Source: Polytrichum commune
Taxonomy: Eukaryota > Streptophyta > Polytrichopsida > Polytrichales > Polytrichaceae
DNA: 64,000 nt
Direction: 5' to 3'
Assembly (NCBI GenBank): GCA_950295325.1
Contig: OX485806.1
Coordinates: 33,108,001 to 33,172,000 of the forward strand
The position numbers were made by a program, and so were the translations under genes. Below, in pieces: positions 18,775 to 62,040 of the stretch. The notes below the pieces were generated by a model that did no database searches, was not told where the DNA came from, and was given only the letters and a program-made list of their open reading frames with translations. Within the stretch, counting starts at the first letter, position 1, and every line of letters starts with the position of its first letter.

Positions 18775-19680
18775 TGGTGTTGGGGTTGATACTAAGGGGG
18801 GGGGGGGGCTCTCTGTTCCGACACAAAATTAGTACCCTCTCCTCAACCTCTACCACGTGTCATGCTCACATTCACTACGACACACTCGTATCCCATGTGG
18901 AACCTACATTCTTGCACATGTAAAGACGGAGACGAGGTATAAAATCAGTTCAATCGATGCGTTTTCACGTTGCTAATGGATGAGTTTACGTAGAGCTATT
19001 GGTGTTGATACTACCGTAGAGGACTCTCTGTTCCAACACATCATCAGTATCCGCTCCTCAACCTCTGCCACGTGTCATGCTCACATTCACTACGACACAC
19101 TCGTATCCCATGTGGAACCTACATTCTTGCACATGTAAAGACGGAGACGGGAACCCTCTATGTTATAAAATCAGTTCGTTTTGATGCGTTTTCACGTCGC
19201 TAACAGATGTGTTTACGTAGAGCTATTGGTGTTGATACTACCATAGAGGACTTTATGTTCCAACACATAATCAGTATCCTCTCCTCAACCTCTGCCACGT
19301 GTCATGCTCACATTCACTACGACACACTCGTATCCCCTGTGGAACCTACATTCTTGCACATGTAAAGACAGAGACAAGAACCCTCTATGTTATAAAATCA
19401 GTTTGTTTCGATGCGTTTTCACGTCGCTAACGGATGTGTTTACGTAGAGCTATTGGTGTTGATACTACCATAGAGGGCTCTCTGTTCCAACACAAAATTA
19501 GTACCCTCACCTCAACCTCTGCCACGTGTCATGCTCACATTCACTACGACACACTCGTATCCCATGTGGAACCTACATTCCAACACATGTAAAGACGGAG
19601 ACGGGAACCCTCTACCGTATAGAATTAGTTCGTTTCGATGCGTTTTCACGTTGCCTAACGGATGAGTTTACGTAGGCAAC
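18775..19680 (+). repeat. Four-unit ~227-bp tandem array with G-box and TATA-like motifs
   Basis: The core CCACGTGTCATGCTCACATT starts at 18853, 19068, 19295 and 19522 (spacings 215, 227, 227). Each unit carries CCACGTGTC, a G-box/ABRE-like core, and 85-96 bases later a TATA-like box (18938, 19164, 19391; TATAGAA at 19618 in the last). Unit 1 lacks about 12 bases. The units also share TTTTCACGT and TTTACGTAG blocks. Copies are very similar, so amplification is fairly recent. No coding sequence is obvious in the units. This could be a duplicated promoter, an intergenic spacer-type array, or an ordinary satellite seed. Confidence 0.85.
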
Positions 19681-47697: not shown

Positions 47698-50600
47698 ATG
47701 GACTCCCGACAGGGGTTACCGGCGCTGAACCATCTGTTGCAACACACTCTTCGCAGCTTGTGCACCGACTCGCAATGGGTTTACGCGGTGTTTTGGCGCA
47801 TCCTGCCCCGCAATTACCCGCCTCCTCAGTGCGTGCTCCTCCTCACCACTTTAATATTATTTTCTCAACCTGATCAATGCACCACCGCCACCGCACGCGA
47901 TCCTCTTTCATGTCATCCATGTCATAACATCACTGATTTCTCACTGTGAATTCTTGTCTCTCCTCAAGTTGGAATTCTCTCTCCTTGCCGGTGTTGGTGT
48001 CTATTCTCTAGATTCCCTTTCTGAAGTTCAATTCCTGTGCTTCCATGAGGATTCAGTGTTTCTGATCCTCACATTACATGTGCAAAAGTTCTTCAAAACT
48101 TGTGTAGGAGCAATGTAGCCACCGGTTTGGGTTCTCAGGTGGAGTAGGTTGCTAGATTTTGTGTGAGGAATCTGCAAAAACCCAAACTTCCTCTCAGAAT
48201 ATGATGTTCGTGCACTTCACCTTCAGACGGATCTCTTTACATACTACATTCTCCCCCTCCCTCTTAGCCACCAGCGTAGAGGTCATCGAGATCACCAACA
48301 ACACTAAGCTAGTTTCTTTGCGTCCAGCTCTATGGACTACCGCTCTCTTGCTTTCTTTTCTTTCCATCCTCAGGAAGCTGTAGAAATGTATCCACAGCAA
48401 TCACTTGGTAGCTCTCTAACTTCGAGTAGAGTCGAGAAGATCAGTGTGCAATCCTTCTTAGCCAACCACTTGAAGAACTCTCTTAAGTTAGTAGATCACC
48501 CCAAGCCTTTCTCTAGAGTGAGTTAGTTCCCTCTACCTCTACCTCTACCTCTACCTCTACCTCTACCTCTACCTGCATTGTTGGGACCTGCATTGTGTGG
48601 ACCTGCATTGTCTCCAAAGTTAGATCACGTGTGTCTGCATCAGCGGTTGACGAGTTTGCTGTCGTTAGTATTTCCACTGCTTCATTCCAGTCCCTTAGAA
48701 CCTTCAGTGGGGCACTGCTGGGTTGCCGCAGATTAGAAAATTTGGTTTGGGGAAACTTCGAAGGAAAACTCTCCTAACCTTCGCAATTGTGGTTGACCCA
48801 CAGATGGGACACCGAAGGTGGCGTAATGGACAGATCGAAAGGAAACAAACGCAACTGGTATAATTATGCTAGCTTCCCCTCAATCTCTCCACATGCTATT
48901 GTTCGCAATTTCAGATGTGTTCTTGGTGGAGTTCTACAACAATTGTTAAATCTACGTTAAGTCAGATTTTAGTGATTTTTCTCCTAATGGGCATCCAAGG
49001 GTTGGTTCGGACTTTAATTCTCTCTCTCGACTGAAATCCTGGTTAAACCATCTTCACAGTCGAGAATGGACCCGAAGACTCAGGAAAAAGAGGGTTTGGG
49101 CTAGTGAATTGTCTCTCAAGTCTAAAACAAGGTGGCGGTGTGCAGGATTCTAGTGTGGGAGGATGGTTTCTGCAACTTCTCAGCCTGTGCTGGTGCAGCC
49201 AAGGATGCAAGGGGCGGTTCCCACTTCTTCGGAGCGCAACAGCACCGGGGCAGTGACGATGAGTCGGAGGCCATGAATCCGGAGCTTTTCTTCAAGATGT
49301 CACACGAAGTGTACAACTACGGAGAAGGGTAGAAACCTCCACCCAAACCATTGAAGCTAATATCCATCCTCCCTCTTACCATATGTGTGACCAACTCACC
49401 ACCCAAAAGCCAACTTCACATCAATCTCTCTGCAGACAAGTTTTGAAGACAAGCCCAACCATTGATGCTAACATCCATCCTCCTAACTCATTACCCAAAA
49501 TCCAACTTCACATCAATCTGCAGACAAGCTTTGAAGCAAGCCTAACCCTGGTTATTGGCCGTTGTTGTTGGTGGCAGGTTGATGGGCAAGGTAGCTGTCG
49601 ACAACAGCCACAAGTGGGTGTACCGAGAGCCGATGGAGCATGAGATCAGCTTCATCTCCCCTTGGCACGGCTCCCTGGACCCTGTGAGCCACTTTTCCCC
49701 GCATTCCCAAGCTCTTTTCCTCCCAATTTGCTCTTCACATTGTTTCGTCACCCTGGTTATGCAACAATTTGCCGGAGTCTTCTCGTTACCGCTGGAAATG
49801 TAGCCGAATATCAAGACAAAAACCCACTATTGGGAACTGCTGATGATGCAGATTGGTGTGCATAACCTCTGGTCAAATGGCTTGGCACCATTTGGCTATA
49901 GCCACGTGTTTTTTTTAAAATTATTTATTTTCTATTTCATTCTAATTTGTGATCGCTTCCTTTTTTTATTGCTTTGGACTGAGTATGTAACTTTAAAAGC
50001 TTTTGCTTAACTATCTCTGTTGATTCTTATTTTGTGGTGTACTTGTGTCCTTGATATTTAAGCGTTGTCTGAGCCTCAATTCTTGCGAGGACATGTTTCC
50101 TCACATGGCTGGGGTTCAATTGGGTCACTGGCTCTTGCTCTGACACCGTGGGAGCCTGTTTTGTAGCATCCACGCACATGGGAGGCCCAATTCAAGTCTG
50201 GAATTCAGACGATTGCAGTCGTGGCGGTTCAAGAAGGTGTTCTTCAGCTGGGATCCACCAAGAAGGTGATCATCACCGTGCTCATTCTCTGTCCTATCTT
50301 GTGGGCAAACCGCAGTGCCAAAGTTCTCCTTTCTTCTGTGGATGGCTAGCAAGATTTGCTGCAACCTGTAAAAGCAGGCTCCTTTGCTGGCTGTTTGCAC
50401 ATGGACCCCCTGTGGCAGTCACATTTTGTGAGCTCCATTGCAAGTCTGTGAGTGTGCACACAATGATCTGTGTCTACACACTACAAACCATGCCTTAAAA
50501 CGTCTGCATTGTTATTGAATCTGCATTTATTTCATATCCGGTTGCTGTAGCACATAGCAGAGGATCTGAACTTTGTGCTCCACATGCAATCTTGACTATT

Positions 50601-51808
50601 TCGATTTCGAGTCGCATTGGCAGATAACAGAGGATCTAAACTTTTATGATCCACATGCAAATCTTCCTGTATTCGATTTCGAGTTGCTCTGGCACATAAC
50701 AGAGGATCTGAACTTTGTGCCCCACATGCAATTCTTGACGGTTCCAACTTCTGGTTGCTTTGGGCAGATAACGGAGGATCTGAGCTTTCATGCTCCACAC
50801 GATGCAAATCTTGACATGTTTGATTTCTGGTTGCTTTGGCAGATAATGGAGGATCTGAACTTTGTGCTTCACATGCAACGGAAATTCAACTACCTCCAGT
50901 CGATCCCTGGGGTGTTTGTGCCTCACCCGGCATCGACCACAGGAGGGGCCAGTGTTCGGAAACGCAATGGAGAGGGCTCCCCACCGGCCGACCGTGGCCA
51001 CTGGATGGCAGCCGCAGAGTACGAGAGGCTCACGGCCGCAGGCGGCCACTTGACGGCCCGATCGATTGACCAGTTCCTTTCGCCACGGCTGGGTCCTGAC
51101 CCATGGCGACCGGCAACTGACACGTCCATCCTCGGGATGAAGAGGCCCCCGGACGGCGAGCCAATGCCACTCAACTTCAAGGACTACAATTCGTACATGA
51201 ACGGAAATGGCAATGGGAGTGTTGGATTTGAGTGCCGGCCGGAGTGCCCGTCGCCCCCGAAAGCATTGAACACAGGGCAGTCAAGCCCTCAAGGCAGCGC
51301 GAGCCCCACCATCCCGAACCTACTCCCCTCGATGTCAAGCTTGCAAGCGCTGCTATCAAAGCTCCCGAGCGTGACGCCGATGGAAGGTGACCAGAGCAAG
51401 GTGGCGTCCTCGTCGTCGCCGCCGAGGAGTAACGGGTTCGAGGTCGGGGGGTTGGGATCCGGGAGCAACAATTTCAGCAGCAACCGGCCCCCGATCGGGC
51501 GGTCGTCGGGGAAGGTGGTGAAGGAGGCGGCGGCAGTGCTGGATGTGCATGGGTTGGACTGCTTGCAGGGGAGCAGTACTGGGACGGCTGGGAGCCCACC
51601 CCAGCAATCGGGATCGGATGTCATGTCCGGGGGGGAGGCGCCCGAGGAGTCGGGCAGCGGGACACCGCAGCAGGACGGAGGCACCTCCTCCGTTTCACAG
51701 CAGCAACCCACATTCCTGGACACGTTTGCGAACCTCGAGGACTTTGGGCTGCCACTCGAGAACGTCAACGACTCCTACAACTCATTTTTGAACGAGATAT
51801 GCAGCTGA
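47698..51808 (+). CDS. bHLH-MYC_N domain protein, RSS3/LHW-like family ('WNK-related'), five exons
   Basis: Exons by GT-AG and phase: 47698-47828, 49146-49328, 49578-49683, 50167-50265, 50843-51808, giving 494 residues. The N-terminal ~200 residues form the plant bHLH-MYC_N domain, with SQWVYAVFWRILPRNYP (exon 1), ILVWEDGFCNF and ELFFKMSHEVYNYGEG (exon 2), MGKVAVDNSHKWVYREP (exon 3), TWEAQFKSGIQTIAV (exon 4) and EDLNFVLHMQRKF (exon 5). The rest is Ser/Pro/Gly-rich with two conserved islands, PSMSSLQALLSKLPS (about 335-349) and a C-terminal NLEDFGLPLENVNDSYNSF. There is no basic helix-loop-helix and no kinase domain; plant relatives named 'WNK-related' are misnamed. Rice RSS3 of this wider group is a nuclear jasmonate-signalling partner, so a transcriptional co-regulator role is inferred. 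The start is the first ATG matching the family N-terminus. Confidence 0.92.
47829..49145 (+). other. Intron 1 with (CTCTAC)n microsatellite
   Basis: Donor CA|GTGCGT, acceptor GTGTGCAG|G, phase 2. The 1317-bp intron holds a CTACCT hexamer repeat at about 48529-48574 and a duplicated ACCTGCATTG nearby. No other gene is seen in it. Confidence 0.85.
49329..49577 (+). repeat. Intron 2 built largely of a ~111-bp duplication
   Basis: Donor GG|GTAGAA and acceptor GTGGCAG|G, phase 2. Words AACCATTGAAGCTAA and CTTCACATCAATCT with a CTGCAG recur with a spacing of 111 bases (49346 and 49457), so most of the intron is two tandem units. Each unit ends in a CTGCAG that could act as a cryptic acceptor. Confidence 0.8.
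49684..50166 (+). other. Intron 3
   Basis: Donor CCT|GTGAGC, acceptor TTTTGTAG|CAT, phase 0, 483 bp, with a T-rich central part. No internal feature recognised. Confidence 0.85.
50541..50880 (+). repeat. Five-unit tandem repeat of the exon 5 splice acceptor and exon head
   Basis: The word GAGGATCTGAAC (or variants) starts at 50560, 50630, 50702, 50774 and 50849, spacings 70, 72, 72 and 75. Each unit holds the acceptor tract (TTGCTTTGGCAG), about 36 bases equal to the first codons of exon 5 and about 30 bases of spacer. The last unit runs on into exon 5 proper. AG acceptors survive before units 2 (exon would start 50624), 4 (50768) and 5 (50843), all in one frame with no stop, adding 73, 25 or 0 residues. 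Unit 1 is out of frame and reaches a stop; unit 3 has lost its AG (GGCAC). Confidence 0.88.
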
Positions 51809-52110
51809 CGAGAAAATCTTGCCATTTTAGCAAAATCACCTGTACAATCCACACACAACTCTAAAAACATCCAATCCACACGAGATGACCATCACCACTC
51901 ACAGAAAACTGAACGGAACTGACCACAGCATGCAGCAGCAGCAGCAGCAGCGTCAGCGGACTGAAGAGACGACGGCCCCGCAAACGCGAGCGACTAGTAG
52001 GTGGGGGCAGGACACCAAATTTGGAAAAACCAGCAATTGATCAAGAGACAGATGGGTTTATAATTCATCATGTAAGAAAAATAAAAATCTTCCAGGGATA
52101 GGCTAGGCTG
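51809..52110 (+). other. 3' untranslated region of the host gene
   Basis: Follows the stop codon TGA at 51806-51808. It contains a (CAG)n stretch at about 51929-51951 and an AATAAA at 52080-52085, the best polyadenylation-like signal. End position approximate. Confidence 0.55.
52080..52085 (+). terminator. Putative polyadenylation signal AATAAA
   Basis: Canonical hexamer about 270 bases after the stop codon. Plant signals are loose, so the cleavage site is not fixed. Confidence 0.45.
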
Positions 52111-54965
52111 ACCTGCAGGCCGCTCGAATTCTTAACTTGTCATTACATTACCTAGATAGAGCGGGTTCCAAAGCTCCCAGTGGGCTGGAAAAGTGTAGTA
52201 ATGGTACACACAGTGGTTTTATGGATACTGGAACTTAGCCTCAGGATTTATTGTACAGCTTTAGGTTGGTAGTTGGGACACCCATTGACTTCCATGCTAA
52301 CGCGTTTTATGTGTGGTGTGCTTACCAAACTTTGACTCAGGGAAAATTTGGTCTTTTTTGCCGAAGGCGTAGAGTAAAGAGCACACATTACTTTTATTTC
52401 CTTCCCACCTCTCGTCCCTCGGCCTCTCTCCCATCTATGTCTCAGCACGTCTTGTGTTGGAGCCGTTGTCTCACACGTTTTGTGTTGGAGTGGTTGTTTC
52501 AAATGCCTTGTGACCTGAGTCTCGCAATTGTATCTCTCACGTCCATGCTCGCTGGCCAGCCGGCCAGCCAGCCATCGTCACCCTGACATTCGTTGCGCCA
52601 ATGCTTCCTGCAGACTCCACTGTTGTGTTGGCGGGAATGTCGTTGAAGCACCAAAAAGCGGCATGTACTTGCACCACTGCCTTATCTACTGGCCAGCGCC
52701 AATTTATTGTGTTGGGAGTTCAATCAGAAAAGGTACGGGATCTAACAACAACATGATCACGGCACCTTTAAGAACACAAGGAAAGTTCAAGGACCGACCC
52801 GACGTCTGTTAATATAAATCACTTCCTACCCATCAGCTCTTACGCGGTCGTGCCCCCCCCCCCGCACTGCCTCCATCATTCTCTAGCTTCCTGTTGGGCT
52901 AACTGTTTGTCTGTCTGTGTGCGCAAGTGAGGCCACCCTCATTTCCTGCAATCCCTGAAACTTATTCCCACATATCAGGGAAGGAGGCCAAGGCCTTAAC
53001 CTTTCAAGCCTTTCAACCACATTGCATCATTGATCATCATCATCACCATCATCATCACCATCATCATCATCATCATCACGCACGAAGGCATGACGACGGG
53101 ACACGCTGCTCGGAACAATGCATGAGTGGAGCCATGATTTAGCGCTGCTCGGGAGGACTACACATCGAGTAACATAGTGATTAGGAAGTGAAAGATCGAA
53201 GCCTGGCGTGTGTATATATATATATGTATATATGTTAATGCATCTGGCTGGCGTGTTAACCTGCTACTCTTACTGCCGGTAATCTCATTGAATGAGTGCT
53301 AGCGAGATGACTAATCAGCTCAAGATCTTTGTACTTCTCTTCCCACCCTTGTACACCAAGGCAGTGTACATTCACATGCCGCAGTGGGCCAGGTTTTATT
53401 AGATTGTGTTCTCGCACACCAGTACTACGACGCCAGTGAATCTTCACTCTTTGACAAGATTCTTAGCCTACTGCTGTGTACCGGGTGTCAAAGACTCGTT
53501 GTGTTAGCTAGGCTGGTGCAAGCAACGGAAGAAGTGTTAAGAGTGTGCCATTGATACCCTCTGGAACTCTTGTAGTAAGGCATGGAAATCGTATACCAGC
53601 CTTTTTCTGGAGTATTTCGAATATTGATTGGTTGGCTTCAGGGAGTTGCAGGTTGTTGCACATATGGCTATGACAAACATGTTTATTTAGTAAAAATTGA
53701 CAGAAATAATTTAATGTTTTTCACACGCTGGCTTGACACAATGAAAGTGATATTGAAATCTATGGCGATATTTGTGATGATAATGATAAAAGTAGTAGTT
53801 GGAGTCGATACATAGATTTGTTGGAGTCTAGAAAATGGTTGTGAGGGTCTAAAGTCAACCCTCGAATTGGTTAAAAACATGGGTGTTTTCTCATGGGCGT
53901 GTGGGGCAGACCTCATGGGCATTGCAACTTTACATCGACATTTGCTCATGGAGGGGTGGAGCACCCAAGGTCAAAAGTCTTGCTCCCAGAGGAGGATGCC
54001 TCCGACTCATGAGCGAAGCAAGCATGCTTGCGTGTAGAGGGCACATCCGAAGGCCCTTGATTGCACCCATTCCTCGAGCTTACAAAGTATAGTTCGAGGA
54101 TAGTGTTGTTCTTCAACTTATCCCCCTTTGACATGATTATGATTGACATAGATTCAAGAATCACATTCAAGGTCAATCGTATTCAACCACATCCCAAGCT
54201 ACACCAATAACATTCATAAGAATAACCACAAATCACAGCAAAACAAACACGAGATAAAACATAAACGAGGGAGGGTTTGAGCTTCCTTGTTTGGCCGAGG
54301 CAGCTACGCGCAATCAAGGTATCAACCCTTGAATCCATCCCCCACATCACACAAGGTCCAACAACTTCGATCGTGATCGCTACAATTGCTCGCCACTCCC
54401 CCAACTCCATGTAGCATGAAGCGCACATGTGCACACTCCCCATCAAGGAATATTAATGGAAATTTGGCAAGTTACAACTAGAGAGTAATCAACAAAGAGA
54501 ACGGTCACTGGTCCTTGCAATTACCACCACTAAGCACTAGCAACCAATGCACATTCATCTTGGGCGATGAAACCAAACACAAGGGTGCTACCAAAGGTGA
54601 TGGTGGATTGGCAGTCTATGATTGCTATGGCAATAGAGAGCTCACAGGCAATGAACGAAGTGGCGATGAAGAGCTCAGGGATGGGGAAAATGGACGCGGG
54701 AGATCTCACATGTGGCAATGGGACTTAATGTTGGCAAGGGTGTCGCATCACTGGCTACATGTAGAGGAAGACGGCAGCTGAGAGAGGACAAGTAGGGCCT
54801 TCAAGTAAGTGGAGGGTGGCACTCATGGAGCTTTGTGGCTCTAGACAAGTGGTGGCCAGTGTTATGATGGCCCTTGCCATTGAGTGACTTGGATATTTTA
54901 ACACAAATTTTTTGTGGTCCCCAAATTTTGTTTCAATATTTGGCCCCTTTTATACCTAAAAAAAG
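52111..54965. other. No recognisable gene; low-complexity patches
   Basis: Mixed-composition DNA after the host gene. (CAT)n at 53035-53080 makes a false poly-His frame; a poly-C run is at 52853-52863 and TA repeats at 53213-53232. Open frames at 54183-54781 on both strands match no known family. Confidence 0.4.
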
Positions 54966-54969
54966 GTTG

Positions 54970-55740
54970 TTGTATACCCAATACCAAACACCATGAATCA
55001 TGGTCACACATATAAGGGATTCATATGTATGATTGTGGTACATAATGATACCATGGTTTGGAGTTTTGTAGTAAGGTATGTACATCCAGCACTATGTACC
55101 ATAATCACACATTGAGGGGCTTCAGATGTATGACTATGGTACATAGTCATACCATGATTTGGAAGTCTTATAAATTATGTATATCCAAAACCAACATTAA
55201 GTGTCATAATCAAAACATTTGGGGGTTTCATATACATGATTAAATACATAGTGAGACTTTGATTTGGAAATCTTATAAAGTACGTATACCCAAAACAAGC
55301 ATTAATTATCACAATCACACATGTAAGGGCTTCATATGCATGATTGTGGTACATAGTGATACCATGATTTGGAAGTCTCATGAAGTATGTATACTCAAAA
55401 CCAACATTAAGTATCACAATCACACATTTGGGGGGGTTTCATGTGCATGATTCTGCTACATAGTGAGACCATGTGGAGGTCTTGTAGTAAGGTATGTACA
55501 TCCAATATCAACATTATGTATCACAATTACACATTTGGAGGTTTCATATGTATGGATGTGGTCCATAGTGATATCATATGAAAGTCTCGTAAGACATGTA
55601 TACCCAAAACCAACACTACATACCGACCGATAATATACATTCATGATTTTCAAATGTAACGATTGTGGTGCATTATGATACCATGTGAAAATCTTGTGTG
55701 GTATGTAAACCCGGAACCTATGTGTTGGTTTTGAGTATGC
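54970..55740 (+). repeat. Eight-unit ~105-bp tandem array with internal dyad symmetry
   Basis: The word TGTATACCCA or its variants begins at about 54971, 55079, 55179, 55283, 55388, 55495, 55597 and 55704 (spacings 100-108). Within each unit TATGTACCATAATCACACAT-like sequence is followed by an approximately complementary ATGTATGATTGTGGTACATA, so each unit can fold on itself. Units differ by about 15-25 percent, so the array is moderately old. No coding sequence. Confidence 0.85.
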
Positions 55741-60329: not shown

Positions 60330-62040
60330 ACACTACACTAGTATATCCCAAACAAAACACACATAAAGCACTCTAAACAAAATAATGCCTCATATTCACC
60401 CCTCCTCCCCCCTCTTAGATATGTACATTCTGCTACAAAACCCACACCAACCTTTAAAAACCCAAACCCAAAACCAAAACCAAAACCAAAAGGATAAGCT
60501 ACCACATGGAACAACTCCAACCTTGTCCTACTAGATGGAGACATATCACTCAACTTGGTTCCGATACCCTCAATTCTTAAACAAATGCCCAAAGCCTTCA
60601 AACAAAGACAATCCCAATACTACATAGAAAACACCACAACCCTAAAAAAATTGAATACAAACATCTTGCCAACATATTCCTACCCATTATACAATCCTCC
60701 CCCAACCATCCAATCCCCAACCCAATCTCGCAAAACGCACACAACTACTACATATACATTCAATACAACACATCCTCTACATATTAATTGTGTCTATGAG
60801 GCCCACCTTAGCACAATGTGACCAAGTACTTCAAAATGGATTCCCATCACGATTTTTCACTATCCTAAGATGTCTTAAATTGCTCCCATACCCAATAGAC
60901 CCCATCACTACCCCATGCTCAATACAATCAAGACATATATACCTACATCACACAAACCATCTAAAAAAGCATCAAACCCACTCTAGACTCAATAGTACAA
61001 CAATTCCCAAACTATCCAAAACAATTCATCTAAGAAGCACTAAGAATATTGGATCCAATAGTTGGCTTTTCCACAACACACAACATCCCCACAAACGCCC
61101 ACCACCCCCCACCACCCACACAAACATACATACCCATACATACTCAGACCCAATTACATGCACCACATGGAATTGTGGCCACCTTAGCACTAGTCTCCAA
61201 GATATCCACTAGCTCAACACCGCCAACAACACACCCGTGCTATTGATTTGTATACAAGAAACCAAAACCCCTAAAGACAAATCCAAAAGATTCATAGATT
61301 CACAATTCCCATCATACAAATTCCTACAAAACAACACCTTAGATGTCCAAACATGCCTAAGAAAACCATACATCCAATAAGCACCCACTAGGGGTGCCTC
61401 ATCACTATAATACAACAATCAATTGCCTTCTCAGGATCCATCACTAAAATCGTAACCCCACTCAAACTGACCCCATACTTATAGATCATCACAATATCCA
61501 ACAAGCCCCTCACCCCTACCCTCCTAATCCACATTTATATGCCATCACACGAAGAGAACATACCACTAATTACCACTATACAAACAACAATAAAACAAAC
61601 ACTTAACACACACCCCACCCACATCACACTTCTAGTGTGTTACTTCAATAGAGATATTCTCCTCACAGGAGGACAAACCCTACAAACCACCACATCACCA
61701 ACACAAAACATATAAAGAACGACATACATTCACTGAAATAATACAACTAACAAGTACAAATCTCCAACTCAACCTAGGCCATTTCCCAATCAATCTACAA
61801 TTTCAACCCTACTTTCTAGTCCGGAGACCCCCCACAAAACCAACCAACCCTCCCATCCAATACACTTACCCCATACCATAGTAAAACATGAACGCATTCC
61901 TCATCAAATTCAATGAGCTAAACCTCACAAACATTCTCCAACTTACAAGCCTTCTCAATGAAAACACACTCCTACCCCAAGACAAATGGGTCAATGCACA
62001 TGAATAAATCAATCACATAATACAATCCATTAGTGATTGC
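60330..62040 (+). pseudogene. LINE 5' part: ORF1-like sequence and apurinic endonuclease domain
   Basis: A C/A-rich stretch whose forward frames hold an AP-endonuclease-type domain: TTWNCGHLSTSLQDI (Asn motif, 61160-61205), LLICIQETKTPKD (Glu motif, codons 61255-61263), LLIHIYMPSHEEN and LLVCYFNRDILL (61630-61670). The last block normally reads GDFN, so the Asp is changed to Tyr. A late LGHFPINLQF is the degenerate SDH-type end, but the segment before it is mostly deleted. Stops interrupt throughout. The upstream frame (60555-60821) may be ORF1 but has no motif I can name. The same composition as the LINE at 11480-12725 suggests one family; reverse transcriptase is absent in both pieces. Confidence 0.72.

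Follow-up and report, generated by a model that had tools for sequence, protein, structure and literature searches.

The 64-kb window analyzed here (the whole stretch of 64,000 nucleotides from Polytrichum commune contig OX485806.1) contains a plus-strand gene in which a tandem array of five units runs from the predicted last intron into the predicted final exon. GT-AG joins give a predicted product of 512 amino acids (aa), which would be encoded by five short exons and a long final exon. The features of the gene model and of the array are as follows:

47698..47828, plus strand: exon 1, coding part, with the ATG start (gene model)
48804..48857, plus strand: exon 2 (gene model)
49146..49328, plus strand: exon 3 (gene model)
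49578..49683, plus strand: exon 4 (gene model)
50167..50265, plus strand: exon 5, ending in ...GSTKK, phase 0, donor AAG/GTGATC (gene model)
50266..50842, plus strand: intron 5, 577 bases with the acceptor at 50843; contains units 1-4 plus the unit 5 tail
50541..50878, plus strand: tandem array of five units (TRF and repeat finding)
50554..50589, plus strand: head of unit 1; acceptor position CAC
50624..50660, plus strand: head of unit 2, longer by one base; acceptor CAG; use would add 73 residues
50696..50731, plus strand: head of unit 3; acceptor position CAC
50768..50807, plus strand: head of unit 4, longer by four bases; acceptor CAG; use would add 25 residues
50843..51808, plus strand: exon 6, coding part including the stop codon; opens with the head of unit 5 (50843-50878)

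The exon downstream of the array is the sixth in this gene model, and not the fifth as the initial annotation had numbered it. Donors and acceptors were scored with matrices that approximate plant frequencies, and all rankings of sites given below rest on them. The donor of exon 1 (TCA/GTGCGT) scores -0.4, the lowest among the five donors, and the end of exon 1 is therefore the least certain border of the model.

The predicted 512-aa product matches the bHLH-MYC_N family (PF14215) over residues 14-206, which span the whole profile (123.9 bits against a cut-off of 30.2), and this is its sole Pfam family at E-values up to 0.01. At that threshold, the bHLH domain that lies beside bHLH-MYC_N in MYC2-type proteins was not found in the product. 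The protein presumably resembles Arabidopsis proteins annotated as WNK-related. Comparison with solved structures yields five weak matches, to MYC3 and EGL1 (best E-value 0.0028), and no stretch passes singly; in the weak alignment with MYC3, the exon 5-exon 6 junction (KK/I) falls between GSSEV and ISQSS. The splice junction follows residue 191 and so lies 15 residues inside the Pfam match. Thus, the proposal that residues encoded by the array would be inserted right at the end of the bHLH-MYC_N domain holds for the vicinity of that end, but not for its exact position. A search for paralogues with the whole protein as query returned six matches at E-values up to 1, all of them parts of the same gene, and a 108-aa fragment has no relatives in the prokaryote and virus contig collections. 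A literature search on the protein family, judged by titles and abstract openings, turned up a single paper, which deals with Dendrobium bHLH genes.

Scans of the 64-kb window with Rfam (gathering scores) and for tRNAs gave no matches. Two other tandem repeats are present in the window: a 105-base repeat 3' of the gene (54971-55615; 6.2 copies, 73% matches) and a 227-base repeat at 18938-19675 (3.3 copies, 91% matches). Additionally, the region 60400-61900 is poor in G on its plus strand (300-base windows have a GC skew of roughly -0.55 to -0.65) and includes a C- and A-rich open frame without a Pfam match (60655-61212); it is perhaps an old retroelement-like copy or a product of strand-biased mutation.

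TRF reports the array at 50541-50878 both as 4.7 copies of period 72 (score 380) and as 2.3 copies of period 147 (score 417). The array is beyond chance, as none of 100 dinucleotide shuffles of 48000-54000 yields a TRF row at a score of at least 50, while the real sequence gives seven rows under identical settings, two of which are the array. According to the alignment of the units, every unit joins an intron tail, which includes an acceptor position, to the first 12 codons of the final exon (hereafter, the head). The heads start at 50554, 50624, 50696, 50768, and 50843, with spacings of 70, 72, 72, and 75, which agrees with the original description of five tandem units of 70-75 bp, each with a 3' splice-site tract and about 12 codons of the exon head. 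The corresponding acceptor positions read CAC, CAG, CAC, CAG, and CAG; the three acceptors first described as intact, those before 50624, 50768, and 50843, are indeed all CAG, and 50554 and 50696 are preceded by CAC.

The head lengths (36, 37, 36, 40, and 36 bases in units 1-5), together with the lengths of the stretches between heads (34, 35, 36, and 35 bases), point to an ancestral unit of 71 bases. From such a unit, each of the in-frame lengths (72, 72, and 75) would require small frame-restoring indels, which is suggestive, although units 2 and 4 may have gained their extra base in a single event. Units 1 and 3 have the CAC lesion in common, and units 2 and 4 have an extra head base in common, from which we infer that a block of two units was copied; the higher TRF score of period 147 over period 72 also backs block duplication. 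In a BLAST search of the window outside the array, three matches of 13-17 bases were the only similarities to it. In the source genome (407,808,757 bases, or 408 Mb, in 64 contigs, with 59,099,198 bases in the contig of the window), the array matches only itself among the best candidates scored.

A duplication of this kind has been described in the potato RdRp gene PGSC0003DMG402000361, where an intron-exon border was duplicated in tandem, the copied segment holding a putative branch site, a pyrimidine tract, CAG, and the exon head, and RNA-seq reads confirmed a new intron that recruited a GTAAG donor (PMC4974935). Beside this case, the literature on intron gain seen through titles and abstract openings consists of general papers. 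As in the potato gene, the present copies lie in a plant gene and combine an intron's 3' end with the head of the exon that follows; as placed by the predicted border, the array is a border-crossing tandem duplication. Unlike the potato segment, the moss array has five diverged units, two dead acceptors, and no GTAAG donor, and it is known from sequence. With respect to location, the array is also comparable to the ABCA7 VNTR, an intronic tandem repeat which is reported to affect splicing (PMC5954066). No multi-unit acceptor array was found in a literature search limited to titles and abstract openings, and one may exist in print.

Among the acceptors of the array, the one at 50843 has the highest score (9.7), followed by 50768 (7.1), 50624 (5.8), and 50551 (4.5); the remaining four acceptors of the gene score 3.0, 1.6, 6.3, and 1.6. 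For scale, 25 of the 3406 AGs on the plus strand of the window reach the score of 50843, 139 that of 50768, and 275 that of 50624. The AGs at 50561 (3.6), 50703 (2.4), and 50684 (2.1), from the 17 in 50500-50900, also score above the gene's two weakest acceptors, and further sites in the array are possible because the matrix separates weak AGs from real acceptors poorly. The site at 50768 retains a branch-like motif, a pyrimidine stretch, and CAG, much like 50843. An AG is present between the branch-like motif and the acceptor in unit 2, with none in units 4 and 5; the gene's acceptor at 50167 also has such an intervening AG, and that at 49146 is without a branch-like motif.

The composition of the region changes at 50843. 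The array has an AT content of 0.56, which compares with 0.39 over the first 300 bases of exon 6, and in 60-base windows the value goes from 0.57 (start 50826) to 0.48 (50866) and 0.35 (50906). A composition step at the splice border is described as needed for efficient splicing in the potato report (PMC4974935). In the comparison with Pfam, the product that uses 50843 matches the whole profile (1-181; 126.7 bits for residues 1-224), whereas with 50768 or 50624 the match stops at profile position 173 (119.1 or 119.6 bits, respectively). The acceptor scores, the AT step, and the Pfam match together therefore suggest that 50843 is likely the main acceptor and 50768 likely a minor alternative.

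In alternative 3' splice-site events, several in-frame acceptors serve one donor. The array resembles such events in that it places several in-frame acceptors after one donor, and differs from ordinary alternative 3' sites in that its candidate sites are copies of a single acceptor that have diverged within a tandem array. The exon 6 frame meets only two stops across 50554-50842, at 50555 and 50567; both are confined to unit 1, and the last four units do lie in one open frame, as had been noted at the outset. The possible in-frame products are 585 aa (from 50624), 537 aa (from 50768), and 512 aa (from 50843), which correspond to the 73, 25, and 0 extra residues that were initially predicted; two further AGs in frame, at 50612 and 50684, would yield products of 589 aa and 565 aa, respectively. 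By the approximate matrix, the locus has at least two acceptors with splicing signals and in-frame products, as expected of an alternative 3' splice-site event. The central proposal, that the array amplifies a 3' splice site and an exon head in frame, is supported by TRF, the unit alignment, the frames, and the product lengths. On the other hand, the open frame is weak as evidence for coding, since one antisense frame is likewise stop-free over 50554-50842, and in a drift simulation with open in-frame starting units all three units remain open with a probability of 0.34. The frame of unit 3 differs from those of units 2 and 4 across most of its second half, and the inserts consequently have little in common past their EDL(N/S)F start.

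Divergence among the units was compared by frame and by position. Units 2 and 4, aligned in the exon frame with the three-base insertion omitted, have 15 differences and a dN/dS of 0.32; the remaining two frames on that strand have 0.85 and 0.91. Fisher's test gives p = 0.15 if five changes are counted as synonymous and p = 0.06 if six are, and random placement of the changes gives p = 0.07. The exon frame keeps 17 of 23 residues between these units, compared with 18 of 23 in an antisense frame that does contain stops, and 14 of 23 in the stop-free antisense frame. The changes between units 2 and 4 thus lean towards purifying selection without reaching significance. A stronger signal appears across units 1-4, where variable columns are fewer in the heads (7/36) than in the tails (20/35; Fisher p = 0.0015), and the mean pairwise difference is 0.106 in heads and 0.347 in tails, or about threefold, with the dead units included; if unit 5 is included, the counts are 9/36 and 20/35 (p = 0.008). 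Counted as changes per column, the contrast in units 1-4 has p = 0.0007, or 0.032 when only the last 20 tail columns are used; without unit 1, the value is 0.0079, and without both unit 1 and the distal tail, 0.126. The same four comparisons with unit 5 added give p = 0.0025, 0.091, 0.0146, and 0.310. Since removal of the distal tail weakens these values, the contrast between heads and tails arises mostly from the distal tail. With dead acceptors in units 1 and 3, selection on protein cannot fully explain the conservation of the heads. Other possible causes are conversion with the functional exon and an RNA-level role for the heads.

These data are, on balance, best explained by a border-crossing duplication that was later amplified, with 50843 as the main acceptor, 50768 as a probable minor alternative, and any isoforms as a by-product of repeat growth, a reading that we consider somewhat probable. 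A segment of about 71 bases, made up of the last ~35 bases of intron 5 and the first 36 of exon 6, would have been duplicated in tandem, and the copied intron tail would have carried a branch-point-like motif, a pyrimidine-rich stretch, and the acceptor. Later amplification probably proceeded in part as a two-unit block. The copy that adjoins the body of the exon (50843) most likely stays the main acceptor and yields the 512-aa bHLH-MYC_N protein; unit 4 (50768), with its visible acceptor signals, probably takes a minority of splicing and would thereby insert 25 residues close to where the domain ends; unit 2 (50624) ranks below it as a candidate acceptor; and units 1 and 3 are dead at the original acceptor position. 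In this account, the array, its intact and broken acceptors, and the frames are observed directly, and its history, the gene model, and any use of acceptors upstream of 50843 are inferred. Three points count against the explanation: head conservation is not predicted by the plain decay of a spent array, the differences between units 2 and 4 lean to purifying selection, and the acceptor matrix leaves room for other sites in the array. The first two also speak for isoforms that are graded and maintained, in which the acceptors of units 2 and 4 would be regulated, the 73- or 25-residue inserts would alter bHLH-MYC_N, and each longer form would begin with a copy of EDL(N/S)F that replaces the native one. 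For instance, the in-frame lengths of units 2-4 against an ancestral 71, the open frame, the lower dN/dS in the exon frame, and the acceptor signals of unit 4 can all be read in its favor. This alternative is nonetheless unlikely, as the openness of the frame is accounted for by drift at 0.34 and equalled by an antisense frame, the selection tests on units 2 and 4 are not significant, the mostly different frame of unit 3 leaves the three inserts without a common peptide, and in the alternative products the Pfam match stops short of the profile's end. It is improbable, too, that the array acts as a splicing rheostat, in which selection would keep the amplified units, alternating live and dead acceptors would set the shares of products with 0, 25, and 73 extra residues, and the heads, conserved even in the dead units, would serve in the RNA as enhancers of splicing.

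At the other extreme, the array could be an inert intronic minisatellite that is decaying while 50843 alone is used. The top acceptor score and the composition step both indicate 50843, two acceptors are already dead, and the genome search found no second copy among the best candidates; however, the signals of 50768 are so similar to those of 50843 that some use is expected, and the heads are conserved, which makes this reading fairly unlikely. A potato-like new intron or cassette exon, for which the acceptor of a unit would pair with a donor inside the array, seems very unlikely. Among 13 GTs that were scored across the array region, 12 are at 2.7 or below, and the best (4.3, after 50817) would produce exons of 194 or 50 bases, neither a multiple of three; those in the exon heads, after 50574, 50716, and 50863, score -2.9, -4.2, and -1.0, the gene's own weakest donor being -0.4. 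Two of the five predicted donors of the gene are themselves at 1.9 or below (-0.4 and 1.9), so donor scores alone do not decide against such pairing, and in its favor the GT after 50668 (1.8) would form a 45-base in-frame exon from 50624. Still, the donor recruited in potato was GTAAG (PMC4974935), and AAG follows none of the 13 GTs here; as such, we think that a potato-type origin would give rise at this locus to alternative acceptors rather than a new intron. Least probable is a truncation switch, in which the AG before 50551 in unit 1 would give a 205-aa protein that lacks the C-terminal region, ends just past a copy of EDLNF, and retains nearly the entire bHLH-MYC_N domain. Its acceptor scores within the range of the gene's own, and its product matches positions 1-179 of the 181 in the Pfam profile (118 bits; exons 1-5 alone match 1-166 with 108 bits), but the site was picked post hoc from the scan of all 17 AGs, and the branch-like motifs before unit 1 are only TTCAT and TTTAT, which fit the loosest pattern (distances taken from 50554).

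The significance of the amplified border depends on whether its upstream acceptors are used. If they are unused, the array would be an ordinary relic of intronic repeat growth. If they are used, the gene would carry, within one transcript, naturally occurring copies of a single splice site that vary in position, in the strength of their signals, and in exon head, and that would therefore test how the plant spliceosome chooses among near-identical acceptors; it would also illustrate how in-frame isoforms can emerge from a minisatellite.
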